From Psychromonas sp. MME1 (lineage in GTDB: Bacteria > Pseudomonadota > Gammaproteobacteria > Enterobacterales > Psychromonadaceae), in assembly GCF_041080865.1 (NCBI RefSeq), contig NZ_CP160906.1, positions 868,001 to 932,000 of the forward strand: a stretch of 64,000 nucleotides of DNA. Direction: 5' to 3'. Numbering within the stretch: the stretch's first letter is position 1; every line of letters starts with the position of its first letter. The notes under the pieces were generated by a model. It worked only from the letters and a program-made list of their open reading frames with translations. It was not told where the DNA came from and made no database searches. A program made the position numbers and the translations under genes. Below are positions 2,375 to 52,816 of the stretch, one piece after another.

Positions 2375-2627
2375 TATACCCTTGTTATCTCGAGGTGTTT
2401 TGTCAGGCGCCAGCCCATATTTCTGAGCAAGACCTAACATAAAATAATTATTTTTATAGTACAGCAACGTAGTGCTTATTTTCGAATTTGTGTCCATAGG
2501 GCAAGAAAAATAGTATTCATCTGCCTTGTCATGAAATAGCTATGTAGCATATATATACTTCAATTTTATACCTAGTATATCGGTCCTTTTTCTTGCTGTC
2601 TTTGCTTCTTGAAGTATCATGGGTATA
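2375..2627 (+). repeat. dispersed inverted-repeat element, copy A (long form, 253 bp)
   Basis: The left end TATACCCTTGTTATCTCGAG and the inverted right end (TATACCCATGATACTTCAAG when reverse complemented) form imperfect terminal inverted repeats. The interior aligns along most of its length with copy B at 18493-18739, for example CAAGACCTAA near the left and TTTTATACCTA near the right. Both ends begin with TATA. No protein is encoded. It fills the gap between the 99-residue gene and the secreted-protein gene, and its right end faces the latter with a promoter-like sequence. Confidence 0.7.
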
Positions 2628-2629
2628 TA
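2602..2629 (+). promoter_or_regulatory. promoter-like sequence in the right end of repeat copy A
   Basis: TTGCTT, 16 bp, TATATA, reading out of the repeat. The -10 ends 20 bp before the ATG at 2650, so a transcript would have a short leader of about 14 bases that still holds the weak Shine-Dalgarno AGGTG. The same arrangement recurs in repeat copies C and D. Transcription is inferred. Confidence 0.5.
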
Positions 2630-2649
2630 TCTTCTAATTTAGGTGTTTT

Positions 2650-3438
2650 ATGTTCCGTGTATTGACAATTTTCTGTTTTGTTTGTGCGAGTTTTTCATTA
2701 CAAAGCCAACCTTATAAAATTAATTTATCAGCAACTCAAATAAGTCAATTAGGGCAACTTATTTGGCAAAATGAGGGACAACAAAAATTACAGCACTTAA
2801 CTTCATGGAATCAAGCTGAAGATTTTCCTTCTCTCGGCTTAGGACACTTTATCTGGTATCCAACTAAAGAAAAAGGTCCCTTTAAAGAACAGTTCCCTGA
2901 ATTACTTATTTTTTTCCGTGAGTCTGGTGTAAAAATTCCATCCTGGCTTGAACAGACTAAATTGGCTCCTTGGCAATCACGAACGCAATTTTATGAGGAG
3001 TTTGAAGGTGAAAAGCTTGCCTCGTTACGTCTGTTTTTAAGTGAGCAGGTTGATTTACAAGCTAAATTTATTATTAGACGTTTAGAAAAGGCAATACCAT
3101 CGATCATTGCGACCTGCAATCCTGCTGATAAAACTGTGCTGTTACATAATCTATCTTCATTGACCAATAGCGTGAAAGGCACCTTTGTATTACTTGATTA
3201 CGTTAATTTTAAAGGTGAAGGAGTTGCTAATAATGAACGTTATCAAGGTCAAGGATGGGGATTAAAACAAGTGCTTTTAAATATGCCGCGTCAATATGAT
3301 GATGCTATACGTGCATTTTCTTTCTCTGCTGATGAAGTATTAACACGGCGAGTAAAAAATGCGCCGCGCGATGAATTTCGTTGGCTTAATGGGTGGCGAG
3401 CTCGCCTTTATGCTTACCCTCAGATAAGAATTGAATAA
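2650..3438 (+). CDS. conserved secreted protein of unknown function
   Basis: 262 residues with an N-terminal hydrophobic stretch (residues 3-17) ending near SLQSQP, which looks like a Sec signal peptide, so a periplasmic or exported location is inferred. The mature part holds conserved-looking blocks: SLGLGHFIWYP (about 61-71), VNFKGEG (about 186-192) and ERYQGQGWGLKQVL (about 196-209). I recall similar proteins in Legionella and Vibrio without an assigned function. The invariant Glu and aromatic residues would suit a peptidoglycan or glycan enzyme, but that is a guess. It stands alone, driven perhaps by the promoter in repeat copy A. Weak Shine-Dalgarno AGGTG precedes the ATG. Confidence 0.75.
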   Translation: MFRVLTIFCFVCASFSLQSQPYKINLSATQISQLGQLIWQNEGQQKLQHLTSWNQAEDFPSLGLGHFIWYPTKEKGPFKEQFPELLIFFRESGVKIPSWLEQTKLAPWQSRTQFYEEFEGEKLASLRLFLSEQVDLQAKFIIRRLEKAIPSIIATCNPADKTVLLHNLSSLTNSVKGTFVLLDYVNFKGEGVANNERYQGQGWGLKQVLLNMPRQYDDAIRAFSFSADEVLTRRVKNAPRDEFRWLNGWRARLYAYPQIRIE

Positions 3439-3536
3439 TTTTTTTTATTATTTTCTTTTTATTGTTCATGTTTACCTCATATAAACGGTACAATATGGAT
3501 CACACTATAATCTCTCAATTTTAAAAAGGTTTTGTT

Positions 3537-4547
3537 ATGTTTTATCGTATTCTGCGTAGTTTTTTATTCATGTTAAATCCTGAAAAAGCTCATGATTTAT
3601 CCATAAAACAGCTCAAATTAACACATGGCACTATATTAGATCTTTTTTATCGTCAAAAGGTTCAAAGTCGTCCTGTACAAGTGATGGGGTTAACCTTTCC
3701 TAATTCCGTCGGTCTTGCCGCTGGTTTGGATAAAAATGGTGAATGTATTGATGCATTTGCTGCGATGGGGTTTGGCCATATAGAAATAGGTACAGTCACT
3801 CCCGTTGCGCAGCCGGGAAATGAATCGCCGCGTATATTCAGAGTATTAGAGTCTGAAGGCATCATTAATCGTATGGGTTTTAACAACCTTGGCGTAGATA
3901 ATTTGATTGCAAATGTCAAAGAGAGCAATTTTAAAGGTGTTATAGGGATTAATATTGGTAAAAACTTCACTACGCCAGTGGAAAAAGGTAAAGACGATTA
4001 TTTACTTTGTATGGATAAAGTTTATCAACATGCCGGTTATATTGCCGTCAATATCTCTTCTCCAAATACACCAGGGTTACGCTCTTTACAGTATGGCGAA
4101 GCGTTAAATGAACTGCTTGATGCATTAAAAACCAGACAAGCCGAATTAGAAGTTAAATATAATAAATATGTACCGATTGCTTTAAAAGTGGCTCCTGATT
4201 TGAGTGATGAGGAAATTGAGTCAATAGCCTCTTCGTTATTGAAATACAAAATTGATGGATTAATTGCAACGAATACCACTTTAGATCGAGAAATGATCAA
4301 AGGTATGTCTCATGCAGCTGAAGCGGGGGGATTAAGTGGTCGTCCATTGCAAAGTAAAAGTACACAAGTCATTGCTAAATTCGCCTCTCATTTAAAAGGG
4401 GAAATTCCAATAATTGGTGTCGGTGGAATTGATGGTGTTATAGCCGCAAAAGAAAAAATTGCCGCCGGTGCGAGTTTAGTACAAGTTTATTCTGGATTTA
4501 TTTATCACGGCCCACAATTAGTCAAGAATATCGTCAATAACATTTAA
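3537..4547 (+). CDS. pyrD: dihydroorotate dehydrogenase (quinone), class 2
   Basis: PyrD oxidises dihydroorotate to orotate with quinone as acceptor, the fourth step of pyrimidine synthesis, at the inner membrane. 336 residues, the E. coli length. The N-terminal amphipathic membrane-binding region [20 protein letters not shown] is typical of class 2. FMN and substrate motifs are seen: [11 protein letters not shown] (about 60-70), NRMGFNN (about 111-117), the catalytic-serine stretch [15 protein letters not shown] (about 171-185) and IIGVGGI (about 298-304). Monocistronic: a strong terminator follows. The leader contains TATAAT at 3506-3511 without a clear -35. Confidence 0.96.
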
Positions 4548-4561
4548 TTTAATACCATTCA

Positions 4562-4606
4562 AAAAAGGCTAAATAACATCTATTTGTTATTTAGCCTTTT
4601 TATTTT
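4562..4606 (+). terminator. Rho-independent terminator of pyrD
   Basis: A hairpin with left arm AAGGCTAAATAACA and matching right arm TGTTATTTAGCCTT, closed by a 6-base loop, followed by a T-rich tract (TTTTTATTTTT). It lies 15 bp after the pyrD stop. Confidence 0.9.
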
Positions 4607-4980
4607 TGGAACGTCGTTAACAATAGACGACATATATCGCTATAGGTATGGCAATGATACGCGTGTGAATTCACCTATCTGTATTTTTACATCGTTTATT
4701 AAAATATCGACTTGCGCACAGTCACGATTTTTTTTCTGTTACCTAGATCGCATTTATAGTAATTATAGGGGTGTGGTGATATTCATTATTAAATAGCGTT
4801 AAGTGATTTAATATTCATGCAATCAACCTCATTTAAGTTTTTATTCAATAATGTTGCATTCTTATTCGTGTAATGATTTTTATTCTGCTTTTCATTGCTT
4901 CAAAATGCATGATTACAAACTTGAATTAACCACGTGAACTGTCTATAAAGATGCATCTTTTCTTAACTCAAAGGTTTTAA
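4607..4980. other. intergenic region between pyrD and the symporter
   Basis: 374 bp of A+T-rich sequence. An open frame of 70 codons begins inside the pyrD terminator and is not credible. The only clear content is the promoter just upstream of the symporter at 4921-4949. No RNA gene, repeat or remnant of a gene was recognised in the rest. Confidence 0.6.
4921..4949 (+). promoter_or_regulatory. sigma70-like promoter of the symporter gene
   Basis: TTGAAT at 4921-4926, a 17 bp spacer, and TATAAA at 4944-4949, 31 bp before the ATG. The spacing is ideal and both boxes match consensus in four or five of six positions. Confidence 0.65.
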
Positions 4981-6378
4981 ATGAATACTGAAACTCATGT
5001 TTCCAATCGATGGTCAAGTAGATACGCATACATATTAGCGGCAACGGGCGCTGCGGTTGGCTTAGGTAATTTATGGAAGTTTCCCTACATTATGGGCGAA
5101 AATGGCGGTGGCGCATTCGTTCTTGTTTATCTACTTTGTATCCTCTTTATCGGTATCCCGGTAATGATGGCTGAGGTGGCGATTGGTAAACGTGGTCGCT
5201 CTACACCAGCCAATGCTGCTGCGATGGTGTCGGTTGAATCTGGACACTCTTCACACTGGTCTGTAATCGGCTCGATGGGCGTGCTCGCGGGCTTTTTAAT
5301 TCTTAGTTTTTATGTGGTTATCGCAGGTTGGGCTGCTGCCTATGTATTGTATGCGGGTACCGGTGAATTTAGTGCCGCTGCTGCGGATAGCGCGACACAT
5401 GCAGAAGCCATCGGCACACTTTTTGGCAATCTGGTAAGTAGTGTTCCACAGCTGCTTATTTGGACGACATTAACCGTTGTTGCTGTTGTTTATGTTATCT
5501 CCAAGGGGGTTAAAGATGGCCTTGAGACGGCGGTAACATATTTAATGCCGGCACTGTTAGTACTGCTTGTTTGTATTATGTGTTACTCCGCGATTGTCGG
5601 TGATTTTGCTTCTGCCTTCTCTTTTATGTTTGACGTAGATTTTTCTAAGCTAACGATCAAAGGTGTATTAGTTGCACTGGGCCACGCATTTTTCACGCTA
5701 AGTTTAGCCTCAGGTATTATGATGGTTTACGGTGCATATTTACCGGAAGGTGTCTCTATCGCTAAAACATCAGTTATGATCGCCATTGCTGATACGCTTG
5801 TTGCATTGATTGCCGGTCTCGCTATTTACCCAATCGTTTTTGCACATGGTTTAGAGCCAAGTGCTGGCCCGGGTCTATTGTTCCAGTCGTTACCAATTGC
5901 ATTTGGCTCTATGCCAATGGGTGATTTTGTTGGTACATTATTCTTTATCATGGTGGTCTTCGCGGCCTTTACATCGGCAATTGCATTACTGGAGTCTGCT
6001 GCGGCATACTTAGTAGAGCGCCAAGGTTTAACACGTGTTAAAGCTGCGATTATTGCCGGTAGTGGCATTTGGCTATTGAGTTTGGGTACGATTGGCTCAT
6101 TAGCAGGCAGTGAATGGGCGCAAATTAATTTTGGTTTCATGGGCGGTAATATTTTTGATGCCCTTGATTATTTAACGGCGAATATATTGTTACCGCTAGG
6201 TGGGTTATTGATATCGGTATTTGCGGGTTGGATAATTAAAACTGAAGTTGTTAAAAGCGAGTTTAGTTTAGCGCCGTGGCAATTTAGTCTAGTCATGGTA
6301 TTACTGCGTTTTGTTGCACCATTAGGTATTTTATTTGTCTTTGCTAATTCAGTGGGTGTGCTAGATTTTATCAGCTAA
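4981..6378 (+). CDS. sodium-dependent transporter, neurotransmitter:sodium symporter (NSS) family
   Basis: 465 residues, highly hydrophobic, with about 11-12 membrane helices in the LeuT fold. The diagnostic first helix GAAVGLGNLWKFPYI followed by GENGGGAF (residues about 19-42), with unwound Gly residues and the sodium sites, is intact. Family members import amino acids or related amines using the sodium gradient; the substrate cannot be told from sequence. Bacterial homologues such as LeuT and MhsT are the best models. A good Shine-Dalgarno (AAAGG) and promoter precede it and a perfect terminator follows, so it is monocistronic. Confidence 0.92.
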   Translation: MNTETHVSNRWSSRYAYILAATGAAVGLGNLWKFPYIMGENGGGAFVLVYLLCILFIGIPVMMAEVAIGKRGRSTPANAAAMVSVESGHSSHWSVIGSMGVLAGFLILSFYVVIAGWAAAYVLYAGTGEFSAAAADSATHAEAIGTLFGNLVSSVPQLLIWTTLTVVAVVYVISKGVKDGLETAVTYLMPALLVLLVCIMCYSAIVGDFASAFSFMFDVDFSKLTIKGVLVALGHAFFTLSLASGIMMVYGAYLPEGVSIAKTSVMIAIADTLVALIAGLAIYPIVFAHGLEPSAGPGLLFQSLPIAFGSMPMGDFVGTLFFIMVVFAAFTSAIALLESAAAYLVERQGLTRVKAAIIAGSGIWLLSLGTIGSLAGSEWAQINFGFMGGNIFDALDYLTANILLPLGGLLISVFAGWIIKTEVVKSEFSLAPWQFSLVMVLLRFVAPLGILFVFANSVGVLDFIS

Positions 6379-6401
6379 TTGTTAGTAAAAATTAGTTCTG
6401 T

Positions 6402-6445
6402 AACGACAAAGGCGCTTAATTTATTAAGCGCCTTTGTCGTTTTGC
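6402..6445 (+). terminator. Rho-independent terminator of the symporter gene
   Basis: A long perfect hairpin: ACGACAAAGGCGCTTAAT pairs with ATTAAGCGCCTTTGTCGT across a 2-base centre, followed by TTTTGCTTTTT. The loop is very short, so the top few pairs probably open. Confidence 0.92.
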
Positions 6446-6622
6446 TTTTTGGATAAATCGAAGAATTGTTTGTACCCATTTCCCCTGAACCACCTATGCA
6501 AAGTATGATCTTGTCTTCATTTTATTAAGTGTAAATGAATATTAAATATGAGAGAAACCGCTTTCTAGGTATTATTGATTTTTAACGTTGTCGGCAGTAG
6601 GTATCAATTTAGTAAGGTTACT

Positions 6623-8884
6623 ATGGGAATTCATAACGATAGACCAACAATCGGTTTCTTTGCTCCGAGTGTGAGTGGCTTTTATCTTAGTACGCTTTGT
6701 AGTGAGTTAAGAAAACAGTGCGCATTGCGTAGGATGGATTTAGTTGTCATATTAACCAATGAGACAACTGACTTTAATATGCCCTTAGCACTTGATTATA
6801 TTGATGCTGCTTATATTGCAGTGGATGTATTATCTTCTATTTATGTCGAACAGCTTTTAGCGCGAAATATTCCCGTAGTTTCAGCCTCAGAAGAGTATTT
6901 TTCATTAGCGGTTGAATCTGTTATCAGTGACCAAAAAGCATCCGTTCAACTTGCCTTTGACCATCTTTATGACTTAGGGCATCGAAGAATTGGTTTTGTT
7001 GGCACCCTATTTATCACCGATTTCAGATTACGCTATCAAGCGTTACGTGAATGTTATGCACAAAAAGCGATGGTTTTTAATGAAAATTGGCTATTCGATG
7101 TAAGTGACCCTGGCATTGTTGGTGGGGCAAATGCGAGTGAAAAGTTCATTGCACAGGCGTGTGACTGTAGTGCAATCATTTGTGGCTCAGATATGATGGC
7201 TTTAGGAATGGTAAATGCATTAGATAAAAAAAGCGTTAACATGCCGCAACAACTAGCAATTGTAAGTATTGATAATAACCCTCTCGGAGAGAGTTGTATC
7301 CCTACTTTAACTTCAATTGATCAGAACTTACCTGTGATGATTTCGCGAGTTATTGATCGACTTCAGGGACGCCTATCCGGACTACCATTTATTAAAAGCG
7401 CACAATTGATAGCGCCGCGTATAGTGATCCGTGAGAGTTGCGGGGGCGCTGATGAAGTTTTGCTCCCTTGTGCTAATAATGAAAATGAGCAAATACAAAG
7501 CGCTAGCTATATGCAAGATTGCAGTAATTTGGCTTTGGCCATAGGAGGGCGTGACTACCGATGGATGACTAGTCTATCCAAACTATGGGGGCCATTCTTT
7601 ACATGTGTCTGTTTAGGGAAATGGCAATCACAATTTAATTCATCGCGCGATAAAGAACGAATCACCTTGGTCGATGTGATTGATGGTGATGGAGATTGTA
7701 CTATTTTAGATAGCTATATTAATAGTGAGATCGCAATACAAAAATTTCCGCCATTACCGATTGCAACCTATGATGCCAATGAAATACTTTACGTTACCTT
7801 GATCCCAATTACTCCAGAAGGAATTAAATGGGGAGTGATGACTATTATTGATAAACTAGATGTCGGTATGGATCAAGCTTCCTATAATATGTTTTTCTAT
7901 TATGTCTCCCTGATCTCTGTATTTATGCAGCGTGAAGCATTAACCGAATGTGTTCGTGATCGGGAGCGTAATGCGTTGAATTTGGCAAAAAGACTCGAAG
8001 TGATTGCTCATGCAAGCAATGATGGTATATGGACCTGGAATCTAGAACTAAATTTAATGGAGTGGAATGACCAATTGCTTGAAATGCTCGGCTTCATAAC
8101 TGAAGAGGAGAAGCTGTGCTATCGTAATATGTCATTTTTTGAACGTATTCATAGCGAAGATCAAGAAGTTACAAGATCTGCAATCACAGCGCATTTACAG
8201 AAAAGTAAACCCTTCAAATTAGAGTTTCGTATGCGAGCCAAGTCAGGCGCTTACCTTTGGGTTACTGCGTGTGGTGAAGCGATGCGCGAAGCTGATGGGC
8301 GGACGAGCCGATTTGTTGGGGTCCTTACAGATATTACTGAACAATACCATTCTAAGCAACATATTGAATTTTTAGCTTACCATGACAGTTTAACTGAATT
8401 ACCCAATCGAGCTGCATTAATGGAGCGGGTTACTAGTGATATTCGTCAATATCCTGATGCATGTTTTGCTATTATGCTCATGGATCTAAATCGGTTTAAA
8501 GAGATTAATGATACCTTTGGGCATGCTGCAGGGGATGCAGTATTAGTTTATGTTGCAGAGGCTATAAGTTTTACGCTTCGTAAAGAAGATCATGCCTCCC
8601 GGTTTGGTGGGGATGAATTTGTCTTTAAGATTGATGCCAATACGGGCTCTGAAGCATTACTAATAGCGCAGCGGATATTAGATAGTTTTCAGGGGGAATT
8701 TAGCTACGAAGGTTACGAAATTCCTATTGCTGGTAGTATAGGTGTCAGTTTATATCCACAGCATGCGACTCTGCCTGAAGAGCTGATAGATAAAGCTGAT
8801 ACCGCTATGTATCATGCAAAATCCCAGTCGCATAATAAGGTGCAGTTATTTCGTTCGCAATTAGTCGAATCTATAGTTGTGTAA
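6623..8884 (+). CDS. diguanylate cyclase with LacI/GalR-type ligand-binding domain, PAS and GGDEF domains
   Basis: 753 residues if started at the ATG at 6623, which has AAGG upstream; the frame extends 16 codons further without a good ribosome site. Residues about 5-280 resemble the sugar-binding domain of LacI/GalR regulators (PTIGFFAPSVSGFYLSTLCS; LGHRRIGFVG; VSIDNNPLGESC), but no DNA-binding helix-turn-helix and no signal peptide precede it, so it should sense a ligand in the cytoplasm. Residues about 300-455 may be a GAF-like region. A PAS/PAC unit follows (about 460-580). The GGDEF domain (about 590-745) has the active-site motif RFGGDEF (GGDEF at 662-666) and an RxxD inhibitory site (RKED) five residues before it, so it should make c-di-GMP and be product-inhibited. 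No EAL domain. Confidence 0.88.
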   Translation: MGIHNDRPTIGFFAPSVSGFYLSTLCSELRKQCALRRMDLVVILTNETTDFNMPLALDYIDAAYIAVDVLSSIYVEQLLARNIPVVSASEEYFSLAVESVISDQKASVQLAFDHLYDLGHRRIGFVGTLFITDFRLRYQALRECYAQKAMVFNENWLFDVSDPGIVGGANASEKFIAQACDCSAIICGSDMMALGMVNALDKKSVNMPQQLAIVSIDNNPLGESCIPTLTSIDQNLPVMISRVIDRLQGRLSGLPFIKSAQLIAPRIVIRESCGGADEVLLPCANNENEQIQSASYMQDCSNLALAIGGRDYRWMTSLSKLWGPFFTCVCLGKWQSQFNSSRDKERITLVDVIDGDGDCTILDSYINSEIAIQKFPPLPIATYDANEILYVTLIPITPEGIKWGVMTIIDKLDVGMDQASYNMFFYYVSLISVFMQREALTECVRDRERNALNLAKRLEVIAHASNDGIWTWNLELNLMEWNDQLLEMLGFITEEEKLCYRNMSFFERIHSEDQEVTRSAITAHLQKSKPFKLEFRMRAKSGAYLWVTACGEAMREADGRTSRFVGVLTDITEQYHSKQHIEFLAYHDSLTELPNRAALMERVTSDIRQYPDACFAIMLMDLNRFKEINDTFGHAAGDAVLVYVAEAISFTLRKEDHASRFGGDEFVFKIDANTGSEALLIAQRILDSFQGEFSYEGYEIPIAGSIGVSLYPQHATLPEELIDKADTAMYHAKSQSHNKVQLFRSQLVESIVV

Positions 8885-9030
8885 AGTAGTAAATATAAAA
8901 ATAGATCTGTTATGCGATGATTTATTAATTATTTTTTGTCATCGCCACTAAACGTTAGCTAAGTTCATTTAGCGGTATTTGGCTATATTTAACCTAGATA
9001 ACGCTTAGAGTATTTAATGATGGCGCAAAA

Positions 9031-10476
9031 TCATTTTATAAATAAGTTATTATCACGAATAAGGTCACGTGGAAGGCTGTTTTTTATACGGTTGTTGAGT
9101 GCTTTACCCATACCGATTATATTGTCTCGGTAGCAAAGTAGTACTTCTCCTTTAGCATTATTTGTTTGCACTTCGTGAATATCACGGCCTTGAAAGAATT
9201 GTTGAGCCTGCTGTGCATTTAATGCGATTTTGTTTTTACTTGCTTGATCGCCAAAGCTGATAACAAATTCATGCATTGTTTTAAAACCTGTTTTACGACC
9301 CTGACCAAATTGTTCTGCTATTTTGATACCTAAACGAGAAAAACGTAATTCATTAATCAGTGGCTCTATTGGTGTTGGCAACAACCAAAACTCCTGGTCA
9401 CGTTGATAGAGTTCGCCGGTAATATCATTAATGTTAAATTGTGCTGCAAAATAGTCATACAACAGCGCTTTAGTTTTTTTACTGCATTTTATAAAAGGGA
9501 ACTTACCAAGACGTTTATCGGCTAGTGGTGGAAAACTTGCTTGTGTTTTTCTTATAGCCGCAACAAAAAATCCTTCACTATCATAAACCTGTGGCCAGAT
9601 ATGTAAAAAACCTTCTTCTGTTCTGGTTCTATGGGCATCGCTGAAGAGTGTATTAAGATCTAAAAATTCAACACCGTCGGGAAAGCTATTTTTAAGGTAA
9701 TGGCAAACATCCTGGTTTTCTTCCAAACTTAAGGTACAGGTTGAATAGATTAGAATGCCGTTCTCTTTAAGTGCATGATATGCGCTGATGATAAGTTTTT
9801 TTTGTACTGCCGAAATTTCGTCAATAGCATCTTGACTCCAATTTTTCATCGCATTTTTATCTTTTCGCACTGTCCCCTCTCCTGAACAGGGGGCATCTAA
9901 TAAAATCGCATCAAAGTTATCGGGTAACCATGATCCGAAAACGGCTGCATCAAAGTGCGTCAGTGCCACATTTTTGATGCCACAACGCTGGATGTTGGCA
10001 TGTAACATTTTTATGCGGCTGGATGAAAATTCATTGGCAATAATTAACCCTTTATTTTCCAACAAAGCGGCCATCTGTGTTGTTTTAGATCCAGGGGCTG
10101 CAGCTGCATCGAGTAAAATAGTGCTTTCAGTAGGGAAAAAGAAATGAAATAAAGCTGCGACAGGCATCATTGAGCTAGCTTCTTGAATATAGCAAAGTCC
10201 AGCGAGATGCTCAGCACTGTTACCAAGAGGAATGGTTTCATCTTCAATTTCTATCCAAAAACCTTCTTGACACCATGGGATTGGAGTTAATGACCAGCCC
10301 TGTTCCGTTGCACGTTGTTTGAATTTATCCACTGATATCTTCAGAGTATTAACTCTGATAGCTCGTCGCAGTGGAATATGGCTAATATTAATGAGATCTT
10401 GTATATCAAGATGTGTGGGCAATATAGTCGTCATTTTATCTACGAATGCTTGTGGTAGAAGCGGGCTGTTATCCAT
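9031..10476 (-). CDS. rsmF: 16S rRNA (cytosine-5)-methyltransferase RsmF
   Basis: RsmF (YebU) methylates C1407 of 16S rRNA with SAM (known of the family). 481 residues, the E. coli length (479). NSUN-type motifs: SAM loop DAAAAPGSKTTQMAALL (about 113-129), the DAPCSGEGTVRKD catalytic-Cys loop (about 193-205) and the second Cys in YSTCTLS (about 245-251). The C-terminal PUA-like portion is present. Shine-Dalgarno AAGGA precedes the ATG at 10476. It lies downstream of the LetA-like pair on the same strand, the neighbourhood of yebS-yebT-yebU in E. coli, though yebT is absent here. It is convergent with the diguanylate cyclase gene. Confidence 0.95.
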   Translation of the reverse strand: MDNSPLLPQAFVDKMTTILPTHLDIQDLINISHIPLRRAIRVNTLKISVDKFKQRATEQGWSLTPIPWCQEGFWIEIEDETIPLGNSAEHLAGLCYIQEASSMMPVAALFHFFFPTESTILLDAAAAPGSKTTQMAALLENKGLIIANEFSSSRIKMLHANIQRCGIKNVALTHFDAAVFGSWLPDNFDAILLDAPCSGEGTVRKDKNAMKNWSQDAIDEISAVQKKLIISAYHALKENGILIYSTCTLSLEENQDVCHYLKNSFPDGVEFLDLNTLFSDAHRTRTEEGFLHIWPQVYDSEGFFVAAIRKTQASFPPLADKRLGKFPFIKCSKKTKALLYDYFAAQFNINDITGELYQRDQEFWLLPTPIEPLINELRFSRLGIKIAEQFGQGRKTGFKTMHEFVISFGDQASKNKIALNAQQAQQFFQGRDIHEVQTNNAKGEVLLCYRDNIIGMGKALNNRIKNSLPRDLIRDNNLFIK

Positions 10477-10661
10477 TGAGTTCCTTAAATAGTTTATTAA
10501 TCTGCTATGCGTATAATAGCAATCTGTATAAGTATCTGATCTAGCTTGCTGGTTAAAATAATAAATAGTTTGCTATCACCTGGAGTGTGTATTGCTCTGC
10601 CGTATTTTCCCTCAGCGAGCGATGTCCACAATATTATCCAGATTACTCTAATGCTTACAAC

Positions 10662-18492: not shown

Positions 18493-18739
18493 TATACCAT
18501 GATACTCCAAGATGCAAAGCCAGTAGAAAAGAGTACCCATTTGTTAGGCATAAATTTCAGCATTGTTATTATACATAATAAAAAAGATGGGGGCAGTTCT
18601 ATTGCCTTACAGGGCACTAGATAGAAAAGCAGATCTGTGCAGTAACTCTCGAAAAGTGAATAACAATTACCTCTGCTTAGGTCTTGATCAGCTATCCGAG
18701 TGAGCGTCTGAGAAATCATCTTGAGGTAACATTGGTATA
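18493..18739 (-). repeat. dispersed inverted-repeat element, copy B (long form, 247 bp)
   Basis: Ends TATACCATGATACTCCAAGA and TCTTGAGGTAACATTGGTAT are inverted repeats of each other with a few mismatches. In minus orientation it aligns with copy A at 2375-2627 (shared CAAGACCTAA, ATTTATGCCTA, CTTTGCATCTTGGAGTATCA). It takes up most of the 392 bp yggL-queA gap; the rest of that gap holds nothing else recognisable. Its promoter-bearing end faces left, antisense to yggL, with TTGCAT and TATAGA 15 bp apart. The other end abuts the queA leader. Confidence 0.7.
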
Positions 18740-18777
18740 GGTATACACTACGCGCTTTATTTTTCAGGTTTCCCTTT

Positions 18778-42359: not shown

Positions 42360-42454
42360 TATAGCAAACAATTACCTTTATAGTCAATAGATACACTATT
42401 ATACAAGTATGAAATTTTCCTGCTGACTTTGCATTTAGGAGATGTATGGGTATA
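42360..42454 (+). repeat. dispersed inverted-repeat element, copy D (short form, about 95 bp)
   Basis: The right end TTTGCATTTAGGAGATGTAT then GGGTATA aligns with copies A, B and C, preceded by TTTTCCTGCTGAC (copy C: TTTTCTTGCTGAC). The left end at 42360 (TATAGCAAACAATTACCTTT) is more divergent and is placed because it yields the same length as copy C. The right end carries a near-consensus promoter toward yhhQ. Confidence 0.6.
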
Positions 42455-44186: not shown

Positions 44187-44210
44187 TTGTTAAAACTATC
44201 ATTGTGCTCA

Positions 44211-44253: not shown

Positions 44254-44270
44254 ATCCCCAACCATGAAAG

Positions 44271-44597
44271 TTAACCCATCATTTTTTGTTGATTAGCCAA
44301 CGCACTGCTAAGAAACAGTTCTACTTTTGTTAGTGAATTTTTATTAGCACATTTTAAAGTATTAAACATAGCCCATAGATAGGGATCATCGTCATACCAA
44401 CGACGTCGTTTTAAATTAAGTGGAAAATCAAATGCATTTTCCGTATCAAGTAAATTAGGCTGATATTTAGCTAACAATGCCATAACCTCTTTGATAATTG
44501 GTCCCCTCTCGATTTCAGTTAAATCTTTAAGTGTGTTTAATTTTTGACTTAAAGTTAAATGTTGATCATCCCAGCGATTCATCTGCTTCTCACTCAT
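44271..44597 (-). CDS. uncharacterised small protein
   Basis: 108 residues from the ATG at 44597, or 103 from the ATG at 44582, which has a weak GAGAAG upstream and gives MNRWDDQHLTLSQKLNTL. Mostly helical, charged, with a basic-aromatic patch LKRRRWYDDDPYLW in the middle. No signal peptide or membrane segment. No family recognised. An isolated end of the dispersed repeat abuts the 5' end, which argues for the inner start. Confidence 0.6.
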   Translation of the reverse strand: MSEKQMNRWDDQHLTLSQKLNTLKDLTEIERGPIIKEVMALLAKYQPNLLDTENAFDFPLNLKRRRWYDDDPYLWAMFNTLKCANKNSLTKVELFLSSALANQQKMMG

Positions 44598-44627
44598 TTA
44601 TTGAGGTAACATGGATATAGGTATAGC
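44598..44627 (+). repeat. isolated end of the dispersed inverted-repeat element, copy E
   Basis: TTGAGGTAACATGGATATAG followed by GTATAG matches the copy B end (TTGAGGTAACATTGGTATAG) at nearly every base. The opposite end was not found; the 108-residue gene lies where the body would be. It may be a remnant. Confidence 0.5.
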
Positions 44628-44854
44628 AGATAAAAATGATCATGTTAAATTCGTCGCATATTTTTTAATACTTACAGTTCATTTTGTAAGTTATGTCATT
44701 AGTTTAATAAAAACAGGCTGATTAGCCGCTAGAAAGGCCAATAATATTCATAAATAGTGGCGCTCTTAACACTAACTGAATCATTAATAGATGATAAACA
44801 TATTTTATGTCGTTACAATTAGGTTTGATGTATATGAACAGAGGATCCTGTTGA

Positions 44855-46024: not shown

Positions 46025-46133
46025 TTCTAGTGGCTATGATGCGTAATATGCCTTTAAAATAGACAATAGAGGGGGTAGGTGTACTTTTTATAAGCACTCA
46101 AACCATTTTATTAAATTATTTTATATTAAGCAC

Positions 46134-46161
46134 TTGCGCTGAAATAAAACTTCTATACAAT
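46134..46161 (+). promoter_or_regulatory. promoter of tRNA-Leu(UAA)
   Basis: TTGCGC, 16 bp spacer, TACAAT, then a G+C-rich stretch (ACGCCGCAC) typical of the discriminator of stringently controlled stable-RNA promoters. It is 35 bp before the mature tRNA end. Confidence 0.7.
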
Positions 46162-46196
46162 ACGCCGCACTTACTTAGAAAGATAAAAAGTAATTA

Positions 46197-46283
46197 GCCC
46201 GGATGGTGGAATCGGTAGACACAAGGGATTTAAAATCCCTCGCCTTATGGGTGTGCGAGTTCAAGTCTCGCTCCGGGCACCAA
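46197..46283 (+). tRNA. tRNA-Leu (anticodon UAA)
   Basis: Acceptor arms GCCCGGA and TCCGGGC with discriminator A and encoded CCA. Anticodon stem AGGGA/TCCCT with loop TTTAAAA, so anticodon TAA. A long variable arm (CGCCTTATGGGTGTG) and T-arm with GTTCAAGTC mark a class II leucine tRNA. 87 nt. A terminator follows at once, so it is transcribed alone. Confidence 0.97.
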
Positions 46284-46291
46284 TTCAAGAG

Positions 46292-46325
46292 AAAGCTTCA
46301 ACTTATGTTGGAGCTTTTTTTTTAC
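46292..46325 (+). terminator. Rho-independent terminator of tRNA-Leu
   Basis: AAAGCTTCAAC pairs with GTTGGAGCTTT (with G-U) around TTAT, followed by a long T-run. Confidence 0.9.
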
Positions 46326-46477
46326 CTGAAATTTATACCAAGAACATCTTATACCATTCCTTGATTGCTGTAACTTGTTGCTATAATTGCAAAATAAATA
46401 AGGTAGCGTTTATTTTAACAAGCATTAATGCGTAGATAATTATAGGGTTTGGTATTATTAATTTATTAAGGAATGTG

Positions 46478-46759
46478 ATGACTGAATATATTGCGCTTAT
46501 TATGATTGTAGCCATCGTTTATTTTGTACTAGTTCGTAATAAACCCGCACCGAAAACAGATTGGGAAAAATTGCCAGATTTTCAGGAATACCAAGCGTTG
46601 GAGAAAACACAAAATGAAAGCGGGGAGTTATGCTGTCATTATTGTGGTTGCAGCGAGACCGTAAAGCGTCCGTTGAAAAGTGAAAAAGAGAATCCTGATA
46701 AGCTCAAATTTTACCACGCCTGCACGCAATGTAAGGTCGTATTATGGCGCAGTGAATAA
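46478..46759 (+). CDS. small membrane-anchored zinc-ribbon-like protein
   Basis: 93 residues from the ATG at 46478, which lies 5 bases after AAGGA (a GTG one codon earlier is also open). One N-terminal helix (YIALIMIVAIVYFVLV, about 4-19), a linker, then CHYCGC and CTQCK, a possible four-Cys zinc ribbon (first pair about 53-56, second about 84-87). Ends soon after (VVLWRSE). Function unknown; similar short proteins occur in marine gammaproteobacteria, as I recall. Confidence 0.7.
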   Translation: MTEYIALIMIVAIVYFVLVRNKPAPKTDWEKLPDFQEYQALEKTQNESGELCCHYCGCSETVKRPLKSEKENPDKLKFYHACTQCKVVLWRSE

Positions 46760-46867
46760 GCAACAGGGACTGTTTTTACTGAAGTTGTAGAGATTCGCAT
46801 TTGCAATGTGTGAGTGTATAATGTGGCAAAATTGAGTGCCAAATTATGATATTAATGGGAAATTATT

Positions 46868-47746
46868 TTGCATACAAGCAATGAAAAGCGACTGAATAAA
46901 TATATTAGTGATTCGGGTTTTTGTTCTCGTCGCGAGGCTGATAAACTGATTGAGCAACAACGTGTTCAAATTAATGGAAAAATTCCGGAATTAGGGACGA
47001 AAGTCCAAGTTGGTGATGTGGTTACAGTTAACGGTAAATGCATATCAGCTGTTGCAGAGAATAAATCAGATCGCATTTATATCGCCTACAATAAACCAAT
47101 TGGTATTACCTGCACCACGGAGCGTAATGTACATGGCAATATTATTGATGCGGTGAAACATAAAGAGCGTATATTCCCCATCGGGCGTTTAGATAAACCG
47201 TCGGAAGGATTAATTTTTTTAACAAGTGATGGTGATATCGTAAATAAAATATTGCGTGCTGAAAATGCGCATGACAAAGAGTATCAAGTGACCGTTGATA
47301 AACCTCTAAGTGAACGATTTGTTGAGCGTATGCAGCGCGGCGTTCCTATCCTTGATACGATTACTAAGCCCTGTGTCGTTAAAGTTCAGAGTCGCTTTGT
47401 TTTTACTATTATATTAACGCAGGGGTTAAATCGGCAAATACGCCGAATGTGTGAATATTTAGGATATGAAGTGACCAAATTAAAGCGCACTCGTATCATG
47501 AACGTCAAGTTAGATAAATTAAAACCGGGACAATGGCGTAATCTTAGTGAACATGAAATGGATGAAATTAACCAAGCCGTTGCTTCATCTTCAAAAACAG
47601 CGTTAGATACTGCCTTACCTAAAAAACAGTTCAATAGTGACCATGAAAAGCCGCAAAAGAGTGCTAAAAAAATTTTTGTTAATGACAAAAAAAAGCGTGT
47701 TATTGCAAATGATAAGAGTAAACGTACATTAAAGTTAAATCGTTAA
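46868..47746 (+). CDS. rluF: 23S rRNA pseudouridine(2604) synthase RluF
   Basis: 292 residues. S4 domain with RLNKYISDSGFCSRREADKL (about 8-27), catalytic FPIGRLDKPSEGLIFLT (Asp about 106) and LNRQIRRMCEYLGYEV. Aligns with E. coli RluF to a basic, Lys-rich tail of about 50 residues. Start is TTG, with GGGA upstream; no in-frame ATG lies before the S4 domain. The stop overlaps the thiL start (TAATG). Confidence 0.92.
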   Translation: MHTSNEKRLNKYISDSGFCSRREADKLIEQQRVQINGKIPELGTKVQVGDVVTVNGKCISAVAENKSDRIYIAYNKPIGITCTTERNVHGNIIDAVKHKERIFPIGRLDKPSEGLIFLTSDGDIVNKILRAENAHDKEYQVTVDKPLSERFVERMQRGVPILDTITKPCVVKVQSRFVFTIILTQGLNRQIRRMCEYLGYEVTKLKRTRIMNVKLDKLKPGQWRNLSEHEMDEINQAVASSSKTALDTALPKKQFNSDHEKPQKSAKKIFVNDKKKRVIANDKSKRTLKLNR

Positions 47747-48738
47747 TGAGTATCAGTGAATTTGATTTAATCGGGCAATATTTTAAAAATAACGTCGCCC
47801 TCGTAGATAATGATGTTTGTGTCGGGATTGGTGATGATTGCGCTATTTTAGATGTACCAGATGGTTTTCAATTGGCCGTTAGTACGGATACACTGGTTAG
47901 TGATGTGCATTTTTTTGCTGATGTTGATCCCTTTAGATTGGGTTATAAAGCGCTTGCAGTAAATCTGAGTGATTTAGCCGCGATGGGAGCTACGCCTAAG
48001 TGGGTATCCTTAGCAATCACCCTACCGGAAGTTAATGAGCAATGGCTTGCTGAGTTTTCTCGAGGCTTTTTTACATTAGCGAATCAACATCGGGTTAGCC
48101 TCATTGGTGGTGATACGACTCATGGCCCATTATCAATTACAATTTCGGTGAAAGGTATTGTCCCCCGTGGTCAAGCGTTGCTGCGTAATAAGGCCAGTGT
48201 GGGTGAACTTATCTGTGTTTCTGGCAACTTAGGCGATGGTGCATTAGGTCTCGATGCTAAACAATTAAAATGTGCGCTGAGTAGCCCTGAATTGTTTATT
48301 GATGCATTGGAGATAACGCAACCTCGTATAGAGCTGGGCCTTGTATTGCGCTCTTTGGCGAGTAGTTGTATTGATATTTCAGATGGATTAATACAGGATT
48401 TACAGCACATTTTGCAAGCTTCACACTGCTCTGCCAATGTTCATATTGATAAATTACCCTTTTCACCAGCAATGCGAAATGAGATTAATATGGGGGCGAT
48501 AAATTGTCAGCAAGCTTCTCAGTATGCTTTAACAGGGGGCGATGATTATGAGTTACTTTTTACCATTGCTAGTGAAAAATTGCCGCAATTAACGATGCAA
48601 ATGCAAAAAGCTGAAATGCATGATATCACTGTTAAAGTTATCGGAGAGATAACCGAACCGACATCTCCTCAGGTCGCTCTCTTTGAAAATAACAAATCAG
48701 TCTCTTTTATGACCCAAGGCTGGGATCATTTTAAATAA
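47746..48738 (+). CDS. thiL: thiamine-monophosphate kinase
   Basis: ThiL phosphorylates thiamine phosphate to thiamine diphosphate. 330 residues. GIGDDCAIL (about 26-34) and DTLVSDVHF bind metal and ATP; AVNLSDLAAMGA, GGDTTHG and SCIDISDGL are PurM-like family motifs. Coupled to rluF by TAATG overlap, followed by pgpA after 10 bp, the usual thiL-pgpA order. Confidence 0.95.
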   Translation: MSISEFDLIGQYFKNNVALVDNDVCVGIGDDCAILDVPDGFQLAVSTDTLVSDVHFFADVDPFRLGYKALAVNLSDLAAMGATPKWVSLAITLPEVNEQWLAEFSRGFFTLANQHRVSLIGGDTTHGPLSITISVKGIVPRGQALLRNKASVGELICVSGNLGDGALGLDAKQLKCALSSPELFIDALEITQPRIELGLVLRSLASSCIDISDGLIQDLQHILQASHCSANVHIDKLPFSPAMRNEINMGAINCQQASQYALTGGDDYELLFTIASEKLPQLTMQMQKAEMHDITVKVIGEITEPTSPQVALFENNKSVSFMTQGWDHFK

Positions 48739-48748
48739 GGTTAATATA

Positions 48749-49231
48749 ATGAAACGTGATGACTTAAATGGGTTGAAAATTTCTAATCCTATTCATTTTA
48801 CTGCTGTTGGATTTGGCAGTGGGTTAGCGAAAAAAGCGCCAGGAACATTTGGCACCTTAGCTGCAATGCCTATCTACTATTTTTTATCTTTTCTCTCCGT
48901 TGAATTATATATTGGAATTTTGATTCTAAGCAGTGCCATCGGTATTTGGATTTGTCAGGTTACGAGTCGTGATATGGGGGTACATGATCATAAAGCGATT
49001 GTCTGGGATGAATTTGTTGGTTATTGGATCACGATGTTTATGGTGCCTTTTTCTATCAAATGGGCTATTGTCGGGTTTGTTCTGTTTCGTTTTTTTGATA
49101 TTGTTAAACCATACCCTATTTCCTGGTTAGATAAAAAAGTCCATGGTGGCCTCGGTATTATGATTGATGATATTTTGGCGGGCGTGTTTGCCGCTGTCCT
49201 ATTACAATACCTCATTCATATCTATAATTAA
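48749..49231 (+). CDS. pgpA: phosphatidylglycerophosphatase A
   Basis: 160 residues with four membrane helices. Conserved GFGSGLAKKAPGTFGTL (about 22-38) and VWDEFVGYW (about 87-95) carry the acidic active-site residues. PgpA dephosphorylates PGP to phosphatidylglycerol at the inner membrane. Next gene starts 4 bp after the stop. Confidence 0.95.
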   Translation: MKRDDLNGLKISNPIHFTAVGFGSGLAKKAPGTFGTLAAMPIYYFLSFLSVELYIGILILSSAIGIWICQVTSRDMGVHDHKAIVWDEFVGYWITMFMVPFSIKWAIVGFVLFRFFDIVKPYPISWLDKKVHGGLGIMIDDILAGVFAAVLLQYLIHIYN

Positions 49232-49235
49232 TTAT

Positions 49236-50792
49236 ATGTTGCGCTTGTTATTACAGTTATTTCAGTTTGTTGTTATCTTTACTGCCCCTTCTCTCTTTTA
49301 TGATGTGCTTGCGGAAGAAAGGGACGGGGGAGCGACAGTCGAAATCCAACAAAGCCCAGTCGGTAACGGTACACCCGAAGTGCAGATTGCTGTTGCAGAT
49401 ATTCCTCTTTATTTTTCTCCCTATGCAATGTCTCCTTTAGAGGCTCAATATGCACATTTATTTTTTGATCCCTTAGTGCGTTGGTCTACGCATAAAGAGT
49501 TAGAAAAACGTTTAGTGAGTGGCTGGCTGTTACTAAAACCCGGGGTTATTCGTTTTTTTTTAAAAAAAGAGATTAGTTTTCATTCCGGTAATAAATTAAG
49601 TAGCGATGATGTTATTTGGACGCTTGATCAAATTCGTAAAACCCCTCATGCAAAAGCTTTTTTTACAGGTATCCTTAAGATAGAAAAAGTCGATCAGCAT
49701 AGCTTTGATCTACATACAGATTTGTCTGAAGATCAATTATTAGATTATCTGGCGCATTTTTTTGTTTTAGACCATGCATTTTATGAATCACATAATATCA
49801 CCATGAATAATAGTCAAGATATCGTCAACTTTAATAGTAAAACACTGCCTATTTCTGGTTCAGGCCCCTATAAAATAAACCAATATAATCCATTATTACA
49901 TCTACGTGTCGTTAGTAATGATAAATATTGGGGGGAAACTAATGTAATTGCAGGTTTTAATTTTATTAGGATACACTCAGCGAATTCTCGTTTATATGCA
50001 TTACTTGCCGAAGATGTTGATATATGTGAATCGATGGCTAAAAAAGATATTGATACCGTTAGCCATGCCCCATCTAAAAAATTAGTAGAAATATCTTCAT
50101 CGGAAGTTGTTTTTTTAACCATTAGTGATAAACGATCTAATGTGTTTAAACGCCGAGTTGCAAGAGATGCCGTTGCTTTGTCGATCAATAAAATGGGCAT
50201 GTTAAAGCACATTGTTAATAATCTAGGGAGTGTAAAACCCTATTTTACTGCGCAGCAAAATATAGGAGATAAAGAAAATAAAGAGTTGCTTGAATATGAT
50301 GCCAGAACTGCGAGAAATATTTTTTCTAAAATAACGATGCCAGCGGAGCTGCATTTATTAGTGTTAGTCGATAAAGCGGGTAATACAGCACAAATCGCCC
50401 GTGCTTTATTAAATATGATGCAAAAAGTGTCTATTAAACTGACCATTACAGAGGTCTCGGATTTACAAAAATGGAACGCAATGTCCGGTGATTATGACTT
50501 TACTTTATCTTCATGGCAATTTCCGTTGTTAAATCGAGATAACATTTACCAACACTTATTTACGGATAGCCCATTAAGTCAATATATCGACGCACTGTTT
50601 GCTGAATCGCTTAGTGATAATACACTCGCCAGTAAAATATCACTGTTTGAGCAAAGTCAAGAATCACAATGGATCATGCCTTTGTTATTTTTAAATACAG
50701 TATGGGCCAGTGATGATAAATATGATTTAGCATCCATATTTTCCATTAACAGTATCCCATACTGGCATTTATTAACAGTAAATAAGCCATAA
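49236..50792 (+). CDS. extracellular solute-binding protein, family 5 (orphan)
   Basis: 518 residues from the ATG at 49236. Signal peptide (hydrophobic residues about 4-25). The body resembles DppA/OppA-type binding proteins: FHSGNKLSSDDVIWTLDQI (about 127-145), SGSGPYKI, and RDAVALSINKM. No permease or ATPase gene adjoins. It follows pgpA by 4 bp and probably shares its transcript. The C-terminal part is shorter and less regular than in peptide-binding proteins, so ligand and even transport role are open. Confidence 0.78.
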   Translation: MLRLLLQLFQFVVIFTAPSLFYDVLAEERDGGATVEIQQSPVGNGTPEVQIAVADIPLYFSPYAMSPLEAQYAHLFFDPLVRWSTHKELEKRLVSGWLLLKPGVIRFFLKKEISFHSGNKLSSDDVIWTLDQIRKTPHAKAFFTGILKIEKVDQHSFDLHTDLSEDQLLDYLAHFFVLDHAFYESHNITMNNSQDIVNFNSKTLPISGSGPYKINQYNPLLHLRVVSNDKYWGETNVIAGFNFIRIHSANSRLYALLAEDVDICESMAKKDIDTVSHAPSKKLVEISSSEVVFLTISDKRSNVFKRRVARDAVALSINKMGMLKHIVNNLGSVKPYFTAQQNIGDKENKELLEYDARTARNIFSKITMPAELHLLVLVDKAGNTAQIARALLNMMQKVSIKLTITEVSDLQKWNAMSGDYDFTLSSWQFPLLNRDNIYQHLFTDSPLSQYIDALFAESLSDNTLASKISLFEQSQESQWIMPLLFLNTVWASDDKYDLASIFSINSIPYWHLLTVNKP

Positions 50793-50808
50793 TAGCAATT
50801 GCTATATA

Positions 50809-52667
50809 TTAATTATAATAGGCCTGAATTTGCTCTGTGATGCCTTCGCTATCTAGTTTTAATAAATGGTAAATTTGTTGCTGGGTTCCCTGTTCAATAA
50901 ATTGATCTGGTATGCCAATGTTTAAAACGGGTAAAATAATTTTATTAGCCATAAAGTATTCATTTACGGCGGAACCTGGCCTCCCGCAATACTATTTTCT
51001 TCAATAGTTACAAACTGAGAATGATGATCACTGAGCTCTTTGAGTAGCACCTTATCCAGGGGTTTTACAAAGCGCATATCAATGAGCGTAGCATTTAATT
51101 TTTCAGCGACAGGTAATGCTTGTTGCAGTAAGGTGCCAAAACATAAAATGGCTAATTTTTCCCCTTCACGTATGCGTTTTGCTTTACCGATAGGTAGTTT
51201 TTGCATTGATTGACTTACAGGTACGCCGGCACCAACGCCACGAGGGTAACGAACCGCTGCAGGTGTATTAAGTGTGTGGCCTGTATATAGCATGTCTCGG
51301 CACTCTTGCTCATCGGAGGGTGTCATAACAACTAAATTAGGGATACAGCGTAGAAAACTTAAATCGAATGCTCCTTGGTGAGTCGGTCCATCTGGGCCGA
51401 CAATGCCTGCTCTGTCAATCGCAAATAATACACCTAGATTTTGAATTGCAACATCATGGATGAGTTGATCATAGGCGCGTTGTAGAAAACTGGAATATAT
51501 TGCAACAATAGGGTGTAACCCTGCGATAGCCATACCTGCAGCGAGTGTAACAGCATGTTGTTCTGCAATGGCAACATCAAAATATTTGTCAGGATGTTTT
51601 TTTGAGAAACTAACCATGCCAGAGCCTTCTCGCATCGCCGGAGTGATAGCGGTTAATTTTTCGTCTTGATCTGCCATATCATTTAACCACTCTCCAAATA
51701 TTTGTGAGAAAGTCGGTGTGTTCGAAACAGATTTTGGCAATTCTTGATCGGGTGTAAATTTTGGAACCGCATGGTAACGGATAGGGTCCAATTCCGCTTG
51801 TTTATAGCCCTTCCCTTTTTTCGTCATAAGGTGTAAAAATTGAGGCCCTGAATGGTTACGCATATTGCTTAATGTTTCAACTAAATCAATAACATTATGC
51901 CCATCCATTGGACCGATATAATTAAATCCGAACTCTTCAAAGATAGTGGCAGGGGAGACCATTCCTTTTAGGTGTTCTTCTGTTCGTTTTGCGAACTCTT
52001 TAATGGGGGGAATGGTTGATAGGACTTTTTTACTACCTTCGCGTAATTGCGTATAAAGATTGCCAGATAAGATTTTGGCGAGATGATTGTTGAGTGCACC
52101 GACATTTTCAGAGATAGACATTTCATTATCATTGAGAACTACTAACATATCATTATGCAGAGCACCTGCATGATTTAATGCTTCAAAGGCCATTCCTGCG
52201 GTAATTGCACCATCACCAATAATAGCAACAACCTTACGATTTTGTTGTTCTTTTTCTGCCGCAATTGCCATTCCAAGTGCAGCACCAATAGAGGTTGATG
52301 AATGTCCAACACTGAGCACATCATATTCGCTTTCTTCCCGCCATGGGAAAGGGTGTAAGCCTTTAAAGGTGCGAATGCTATGCATTTGGTCCCGACGACC
52401 CGTTAAAATTTTATGTGGGTAGGCTTGATGGCCGACATCAAAAATAAGGTGGTCAAAAGGGGTACGATAAACATAGTGTAGTGCCACGGTTAATTCTACT
52501 ACACCAAGCCCTGATGCTAAGTGTCCACTGCTTTGGCTAACTGTTTTGAGTAAAAACTGGCGTAACTCATTACAAAAGGCGGGGAGTTGCTGTTTTTTTA
52601 ATAAACGCAACTCTTCGGGGTAATTAATATTAGCAAGCAAAGGGTAGTTTTTTAAATCCAAAGGCAT
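50809..52667 (-). CDS. dxs: 1-deoxy-D-xylulose-5-phosphate synthase (frameshift near 3' end)
   Basis: Dxs makes DXP from pyruvate and glyceraldehyde 3-phosphate, the first step of the MEP isoprenoid route and a source of thiamine. ThDP motif [18 protein letters not shown] (about 151-168), GHSSTS and [12 protein letters not shown] with the catalytic Glu. The frame from 52667 stops at 50964 after EENSIAGG; one missing base at about 50978-50981 (on the coding strand GGC-GCA read as GGCCA) restores [20 protein letters not shown] through to QIQAYYN with stop at 50809-50811. Repaired length 619 (E. coli 620). Follows ispA, separated by repeat copy C. Confidence 0.94.
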
Positions 52668-52718
52668 AATAATTCGTCGCGTTTATAAATTTGATAAAAG
52701 ATGAAAGCATTAATGCTG

Positions 52719-52746
52719 ATTATACCCATGGTACTTCAATATGCAA
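52719..52746 (-). promoter_or_regulatory. promoter for dxs in the end of repeat copy C
   Basis: On the minus strand TTGCAT (52741-52746), 16 bp, TATAAT (52719-52724). A start near 52712 would leave a leader of about 45 nt before the dxs ATG at 52667. It would make dxs partly independent of the xseB-ispA transcript. Confidence 0.65.
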
Positions 52747-52816
52747 AGTCAGCAAGAAAAGCATGCTGAAATACAAGCAAGTACGTGACGAGGCATATTG
52801 AGGTATCACAGGTATA
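52721..52816 (-). repeat. dispersed inverted-repeat element, copy C (short form, 96 bp)
   Basis: The best preserved copy. TATACCCATGGTACTTCAAT at the left and the reverse complement of the right end (TATACCTGTGATACCTCAAT) match over 24 bp with four mismatches, both continuing ATGC. The inner part matches copy D. It lies between ispA and dxs, and the last 27 codons of the long ispA frame are read from it. Confidence 0.78.

Follow-up and report, generated by a model that had tools for sequence, protein, structure and literature searches.

ERIC (also IRU, RU-1 or MITEEc1), a 127-bp repeat of Enterobacteriaceae, starts with TATACCC, carries TA at its termini, lies between genes and duplicates a TA target (sequence and TA duplication from PMC2759123; review statements from PMC2229807 and PMC10969869, the latter of which cites ERIC in Vibrionaceae (Zo 2011)). 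An ERIC-related miniature inverted-repeat transposable element (MITE) of Photorhabdus, the 123-bp MITEPlu5, is said in PMC6267812 (2018) to resemble IS630 with CCC near the terminus; since that paper already ties an ERIC-like MITE to CCC-type IS630, the idea of a link between ERIC and IS630 is not new. MITEPlu5 and the CCC-type IS630 elements ISPlu3, ISPlu8 and ISPlu19 are like the repeats reported here by description. The same holds for RUP of Streptococcus pneumoniae (107 bp), which is non-coding, uses a TA target and has ends that match IS630-Spn1, and the Correia elements (NEMIS) of Neisseria, with TA at their termini, a 24-bp terminal inverted repeat and two size species, are alike in kind only (both as described in PMC2229807).

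Here we analysed a window of 64,000 bp, the whole stretch of DNA under study (G000:C1:868001-932000), from the single-contig genome of Psychromonas sp. MME1 (3,590,786 bp), in which an earlier note had described intergenic inverted-repeat elements with TATACC-starting ends and had compared them with IS630/mariner-type MITEs at TA targets and with Correia elements. By profile and alignment, these repeats are a real family and not a chance likeness. They are very probably non-autonomous MITEs of the IS630/Tc1-mariner type with ERIC-like ends, moved in trans by an IS630-family transposase, a reading that we adopt because one of their two unlike ends, L, shares up to 25 of its 27 bases with the 3' end of IS630 elements and 21 of 27 with the left end of ERIC. 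The comparison with IS630/mariner-type MITEs was borne out by empty sites and by IS630 elements that match strongly at the L end and weakly at the R end, and the closest published relative that we found is ERIC rather than Correia. It is apparently an ordinary kind of element that is undescribed as a family: a limited literature search (end letters; Psychromonas, Shewanella or Photobacterium with MITE, ERIC or IS630), which did not cover ISfinder, returned no description of it.

The full unit is 263 bp long counting the TA on each side, or about 259 bp without, and its ends are L (TATACCCATGATACTTCAAGATGCAAAGTCAGC...) and R (TATACCCATGTTACCTCAAGATGCTTTGTCAGGC...), 27-bp terminal inverted repeats whose consensus sequences are identical at 22 of 27 positions. 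The R end of ERIC agrees with the R end of the family at 17 of 27 bases, and the right end of ERIC also aligns to the L end of one MME1 copy over 38 bases at 76% identity. ERIC differs in its shorter unit, while the present family has two hairpin arms, and in its hosts, as the family was found in Psychromonas, Shewanella and Photobacterium. No homology to the interior of ERIC was detected by blastn with a word size of 5, where the best internal alignment covered 23 bases at 74% (E 0.24).

Candidate mobilisers were found in relatives. Pfam DDE_3 was present in 19 of 24 Psychromonas genomes, and P0002, the 341-aa transposase of locus L277, which was assigned to IS630 by NCBIfam NF033545 (E 1.1e-66) and carries DDE_3 and winged-helix domains, had matches with E no higher than 1e-40 in 23 of the 394 genomes sampled from the order, spread over 11 of 115 genera. 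Among 30 P0002 loci, 14 from six genera had TATACCC-type ends 1098-1137 bp apart flanking the gene, and the two ends of these 14 insertion sequences (IS) differed from each other at 7-13 of 27 bases. In twelve additional loci, examined one by one, a single end was kept by L308, L317, L321, L322, L324 and others, and both ends by a broken IS copy in P. hadalis (G004, L320/L332); single ends were seen in three more genera. When an L-end profile built solely from MME1 MITEs was run on 30 of the Psychromonas DDE_3 loci, its top four matches (E 8e-5 to 0.018) all coincided exactly with termini of IS630 elements about 1.1 kb long. At its 3' end the IS is L-like (TATACCCATCATACTTCAAGATGAAA in L306, the element with 25 of 27 identities to L) and at its 5' end R-like in the letters after position 20 (TATACCCATGATCTTTGAAAATGCTTT). 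In the reverse direction, the IS 3' profile placed its 19 best matches in 193 kb of MME1 sequence on MITE L ends (25.0-16.3 bits; reversed control 8.7), and in loci from named species genomes 172 of its 188 matches above control were on MITE ends (98 L and 74 R, with 16 elsewhere).

Other results weigh against the IS630 reading. The best match of the R-end profile in the same 30 DDE_3 loci (E 6.8e-5, L279:3109) was a repeat end outside the IS, and its next match (E 0.043) was the same IS terminus that the L profile had matched. The 5' end of L306 matched R at 21 and L at 20 of 27 bases, and that of L309 matched L at 17 and R at 15; whole-end identities thus hardly separate L from R, and it is the letters ATGCTT following position 20 on which the pairing of the IS ends is based. 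The IS 5' profile scored near control in the MME1 set (12.6 versus 12.2), and its 93 matches in the named loci comprised 62 L ends, 14 R ends and 17 sites that were neither. No autonomous IS was found in the MME1 genome (0 DDE_3 matches at E 1e-6 and 0 P0002 matches at 1e-40), nor in Psychromonas sp. MB-3u-54 (G013), though near-identical MITE copies occur there. Within the genus, the MITE did not track the transposase, being present in 7 of 8 genomes with it and 13 of 16 without.

Across the order, with two candidates scored per genome for the MITE, transposase and MITE occurred together in 9 of 394 genomes (transposase in 23, MITE in 32), which is mostly a genus effect, and outside Psychromonas in 2 of 370 (15 and 12, respectively). 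Three MITE copies compared with one IS (L306) had no detectable likeness outside the ends. The search for a transposase with matching ends, which the earlier note had proposed, thus led to IS630 elements of relatives, and on end comparison this IS630 appears well supported as candidate mobiliser at the L end and weakly at the R end, with none found in the MME1 genome itself.

Several candidates for an autonomous element were rejected. The best of the inverted end pairs 450-6000 bp apart in the MME1 genome, 3477521-3481535, holds no transposase as judged by eye, and its genes we take to be PilZ-like, EpmB-like and EFP-like; G013:C124:14000-19000, 431700-432950, 3569200-3570800 and 1179300-1181700 also showed none by eye (these were not searched). 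An 1145-bp element of Psychromonas sp. MB-3u-54 (L246 6236-7380), considered as the parent IS, is really a MITE with an IS5-type IS inside (DUF4096/DDE_Tnp_1). Separately, we observed that other IS630 groups of Psychromonas (L282-L284, L286, L291, L297, L298, L303) have different ends (TATACCAATTCC..., ATACCAAAAGAATTT...), and these could possibly be parents of other repeats.

The target site was read from loci that are filled in Psychromonas sp. MB-3u-54 and empty in a relative (G005), three sites in all, compared between species and not between strains. Site 1 is clean, reading AATTAATA-TA-AGCC when empty and AATTAATA-TA[TACCC...GGGTA]TA-AGCC when filled. Site 3 has a clean TA duplication adjoining another repeat end, and site 2 fits such a duplication with TC instead of TA in the right copy. 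In the window itself, the site of the 96-bp copy D (listed below) reads CTGC-TA-ATCA in G019 and CTAC-TA[...]TA-ATCA in MME1, which is consistent with TA duplication. All four filled/empty comparisons fit TA duplication, two of them cleanly. We also noted in locus L179 a nested repeat, described below, which on reading fits a TA target only if two bases have changed.

TA duplication is a signature of IS630, and this bears on the alternative that the MITE is moved by a transposase of another family, its likeness to IS630 ends being due to convergence or to shared TA targeting. Such an origin would fit the MME1 and MB-3u-54 genomes, where no IS630 of this group was detected (searches limited to DDE_3 and P0002), and the poor fit of the R end to the IS 5' end. 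It is nevertheless improbable given that the L-end and IS 3'-end profiles match each other exactly at the termini and far above the reversed control, that L and the L306 3' end agree as closely as stated above, and that the target duplication is that of IS630.

The copies in the window and the gene that one of them has altered are as follows.

2375..2627, minus strand: copy A, full-length MITE of 253 bp, running from L to R along this strand, with the R end at 2375-2438 and the L end at 2586-2627; found by end models, full profile and BLAST/profile relatives in its own genome.
18493..18739, plus strand: copy B, full-length MITE of 247 bp, running from L to R along this strand, with the L end at 18493-18529 and the R end at 18677-18739; found by end models, full profile and BLAST in its own genome.
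42415..42454, minus strand: copy C, one-ended remnant with the L end only; weak (end model and full profile, E 0.0013-0.0019).
44599..44619, minus strand: lone R-end remnant; weak (R model, 15.0 bits, E 0.0013), immediately upstream of a 108-aa open reading frame (ORF).
52721..52816, plus strand: copy D, internally deleted MITE of 96 bp (L end 52721-52760, R end 52766-52816) between ispA and dxs; found by end models, BLAST and an empty site in relatives.
52736..53785, minus strand: ispA-like reading frame of 349 aa; copy D supplies its last 26 residues and its stop codon.

Of the four two-ended copies that had been reported besides one lone end, A, B and D were retained as two-ended. Copy D counts as internally deleted because L and R ends are both present in its 96 bp, and copy C keeps an L end alone, as the stretch TATAGCAAACAATT at 42360, previously taken as its left boundary, gave no match to either end model even at E 1. 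As for the lone end, it is of R type, weak, and terminates at 44619 (TATATCC), not at 44627; the full profile scores it at only 4.6 bits (E 0.42). The variant CAATATG, which the earlier note had placed at both ends of copy C, belongs to the copy at 52721 (D).

Copies A and B were recovered by nhmmer at E 6.6e-57 and 6.9e-55 with a 46-copy profile that includes both of them (best E in the reversed window 1.1). As a non-circular test, BLAST of copy B against its own genome gave 45 matches and BLAST of copy D 42 (40 candidates scored in each), and six of the matches of B, besides B itself, were near-complete, with E of 6e-37 to 3e-21 for five of them and 5e-6 for the sixth. A chance likeness of palindromic intergenic sequence, to which only the weak scores of copy C and the lone end would lend themselves, is refuted for A, B and D by these alignments over nearly all of B, by a backwards control pattern that occurred in 0 of 24 genomes and by the recurrence of the L end in named genomes of other species (see below).

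We then counted the family in the MME1 genome with sequence-only models of the L end (42 positions, from 25 of 34 L ends) and the R end (64 positions, from 13 of 20 R ends), after removal of rows that had gaps or were assigned to the wrong end type. Among the 150 candidates scored in each search, out of 3419 or 1114, 103 (L) and 99 (R) matched at E up to 10, and 119 ends (65 L and 54 R) in 96 clusters reached at least 21.5 bits. With the 12 of 99 R-model matches below 13.3 bits left out of the pairing, 37 inverted end pairs less than 450 bp apart remained, ten at 235-267 bp, 25 at 51-214 bp, some of the short ones resting on low scores, and two that are apparently spurious (one of 2 bp and one R-R pair of 396 bp). 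The profile search of the genome and its relatives thus gave about 96 sites in MME1 and further copies in other species, and the two size classes described from the window proved to be a sampling effect, as the 25 shorter pairs are spread over their whole range. With 15 of 93 copies dropped at locus edges, 77 of 78 assessable copies lie outside ORFs of more than 150 aa, and relative to their neighbour genes 26 are co-directional, 20 opposite, 18 divergent and 14 convergent. No ORF of at least 100 aa overlaps copy A or B.

The gap between ispA and dxs that holds copy D is 219 bp in MME1, 11-93 bp in 21 of 23 relatives and 669 and 673 bp in the remaining two. None of the 23 carries an L or R end within this gap; upstream of ispA, an L/R pair lies in G008 at a distance of about 440 bp, and weak ends occur in G020. 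We observed that the ispA frame of MME1 extends about 47 aa past the point at which it terminates in relatives; the former stop is out of frame, which apparently accounts for the extension. With its last residues supplied by copy D, the frame constitutes a gene-MITE fusion, of a kind that has also been reported for ERIC.

Copy B lies upstream of queA at a distance of 38 bp. Upstream sequence was compared for 20 of 21 relatives, none of which has an end with E of 0.1 or lower in the 1 kb before queA; G020 has one end at about 1.0 kb. The upstream neighbour in MME1, yggL, was absent within 1.5 kb of queA in relatives; since the yggL-queA neighbourhood is not kept, insertion of copy B is indistinguishable from rearrangement. 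The R end of copy B adjoins a GGTATAC motif (window 18720-18770) which, as judged by eye, 14 of 20 relatives have about equally far ahead of queA, so that B may have taken the place of upstream promoter sequence of queA. Promoter-like sites at A and B were near shuffle level (3 versus 2.3 and 1 versus 1.7), and one terminator-like site was found in copy A versus 0.2 in shuffles. In Rfam, the window copies had no match at the gathering score, the only hit being a tRNA elsewhere, and seven loci of the MME1 genome gave five weak matches, all below that score.

Beyond MME1, an exact 21-base piece of the L end occurred in 91 stretches of 11 named genomes among 84,980 named species genomes. The hosts were P. 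hadalis, P. ossibalaenae, P. aquimarina and Psychromonas sp. MB-3u-54, Urea-02u-13 and GLG-1, together with Shewanella sp. TC10, S. electrodiphila, Photobacterium indicum, P. profundum and P. frigidiphilum. When one mismatch was tolerated, 15 of the 24 Psychromonas genomes contained the piece. The 91 stretches contained 80 end pairs, 43 of 262-264 bp, 9 of 323-327, 8 of 338-344, 2 of 398-400 and 5 of 55-60 bp, with the others in between. A full copy, used as query across the 394 genomes of the order, had matches in 32 of them, from 4 of the 115 genera, several of the matches being 263-264 bp long at 71-74% identity, and one 263-bp copy had no match in phages or plasmids at E 0.001.

The longer classes, of 323-344 and 398-400 bp, reflect additional hairpin modules of about 60-80 bp, which we observed in L186, L191, L227, L233, L235 and others at corresponding positions of the left arm, of the right arm or of both arms; their placement was read from an alignment of 17 named and 4 MME1 copies. 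At the other extreme, a minimal class of 51-60 bp, barely more than two ends, was seen in several species, in MME1 at C1:518416-518471, 3005446-3005501 and 3220948-3220998 and elsewhere at L170, L183, L205, L237 and L242. In Psychromonas sp. MB-3u-54 (L179 1644-1968), a second ERIC-like repeat (TATACCCAAACTACTTGAAGATGCAG...) is nested in a 263-bp copy, and lone ends similar to it were seen in L189, L202 and L187.

The consensus of 46 copies folds into a terminal stem and two arm hairpins. In this alignment, from which the structure was also derived, 96.2% of cells pair versus 92.0 by shuffling, and 23 of 68 pairs are changed on both sides versus 11.7 by shuffles that leave relatedness in place (sd 1.6; 0 of 500 as high; slid controls 4 to 12), mainly inside the two arm hairpins. 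The folding of 15 copies was compared with that of 60 shuffled versions of each: five hand-picked named copies had z of -5.9 to -12.1, and among ten MME1 copies five had -3.1 to -7.9, the rest lying between +0.6 and -1.9 and including A and B (-1.4 to -1.9), whose fold is largely lost. Template switching can correct palindromes at the DNA level. As the changes run between UA and AU or CG and GC pairs without wobble steps, such correction fits them as well as selection does. A preference for one RNA strand, hinted at by consensus energies of -61.2 (L to R) versus -46.6 kcal/mol (R to L), was rejected, as strand-neutral pairs chosen without G-U gave 13 GU and 20 AC cells.

ERIC has been reported to act on neighbouring mRNAs in Yersinia, and the repeats could likewise be structured regulatory or RNA elements kept by selection at each site, for instance through such an action. 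The doubly changed pairs, the high share of pairing cells and the strongly negative z of the five named and five MME1 copies are in line with this. We nonetheless consider it very unlikely: A, B and three more of the ten MME1 copies have z above -2 on both strands, co-directional and opposite orientations number 26 and 20, the strand-neutral pairs give no sign of selection on one RNA strand, and the element is missing from the ispA-dxs gap of all relatives and from the kilobase upstream of queA in nearly all. For A and B in particular, selection on an RNA element is already disfavoured.

It had further been suggested that variants shared by the two ends of a copy reflect pairing or conversion between them. 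Such coupling was not supported: over positions 8-24 of 13 MME1 copies, 136 L-R matches were counted versus 139.0 in shuffles (1668 of 2000 as high), and all 87 pairs, a set that mixes species and subfamilies, gave 1224 versus 1210.1 (4 of 2000 as high). Identity to the nearest copy was 0.79-0.92 for 11 MME1 copies and up to 1.00 in MB-3u-54 and P. ossibalaenae, where it should be read with the lean towards young copies of the named loci, which were chosen by exact L-end match. The MME1 copies, diverged, many with one recognisable end and with A and B mostly unfolded, appear to be an old population. One Photobacterium indicum copy is 0.958 identical to a P. hadalis copy, which suggests transfer of the element between bacterial families.

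On the IS630 reading, the 27-bp ends would be recognised by an IS630-family transposase supplied in trans, which would cut the element out and join it into a TA that is thereby duplicated; the duplication is read from the empty sites, and the chemistry would be that of the transposase family. The L end would correspond to the 3' end of the parent IS and the R end, with less certainty, to the 5' end, with an interior unlike the compared IS that would form the two hairpin arms. More tentatively, and with some doubt on our part, the IS630 clade with TATACCC ends might be the common mobiliser of the 263-bp family and of ERIC itself, and the two-armed fold might serve the element's own spread, being maintained by compensatory change and lengthened close to the hairpin tips by the 60-80 bp modules.

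The family is a second one with ERIC-type ends, lives in marine bacteria and appears tied through one end to a defined group of IS630 elements whose reading frames are intact, and its near-identical young copies in some species stand alongside strongly decayed copies in the genome of the window. Concrete pairs of enzyme and ends are now available for testing, with TA duplication seen at empty sites, and if the mobiliser is indeed common to both families, the long-missing transposase of ERIC would become testable with a cloned enzyme.

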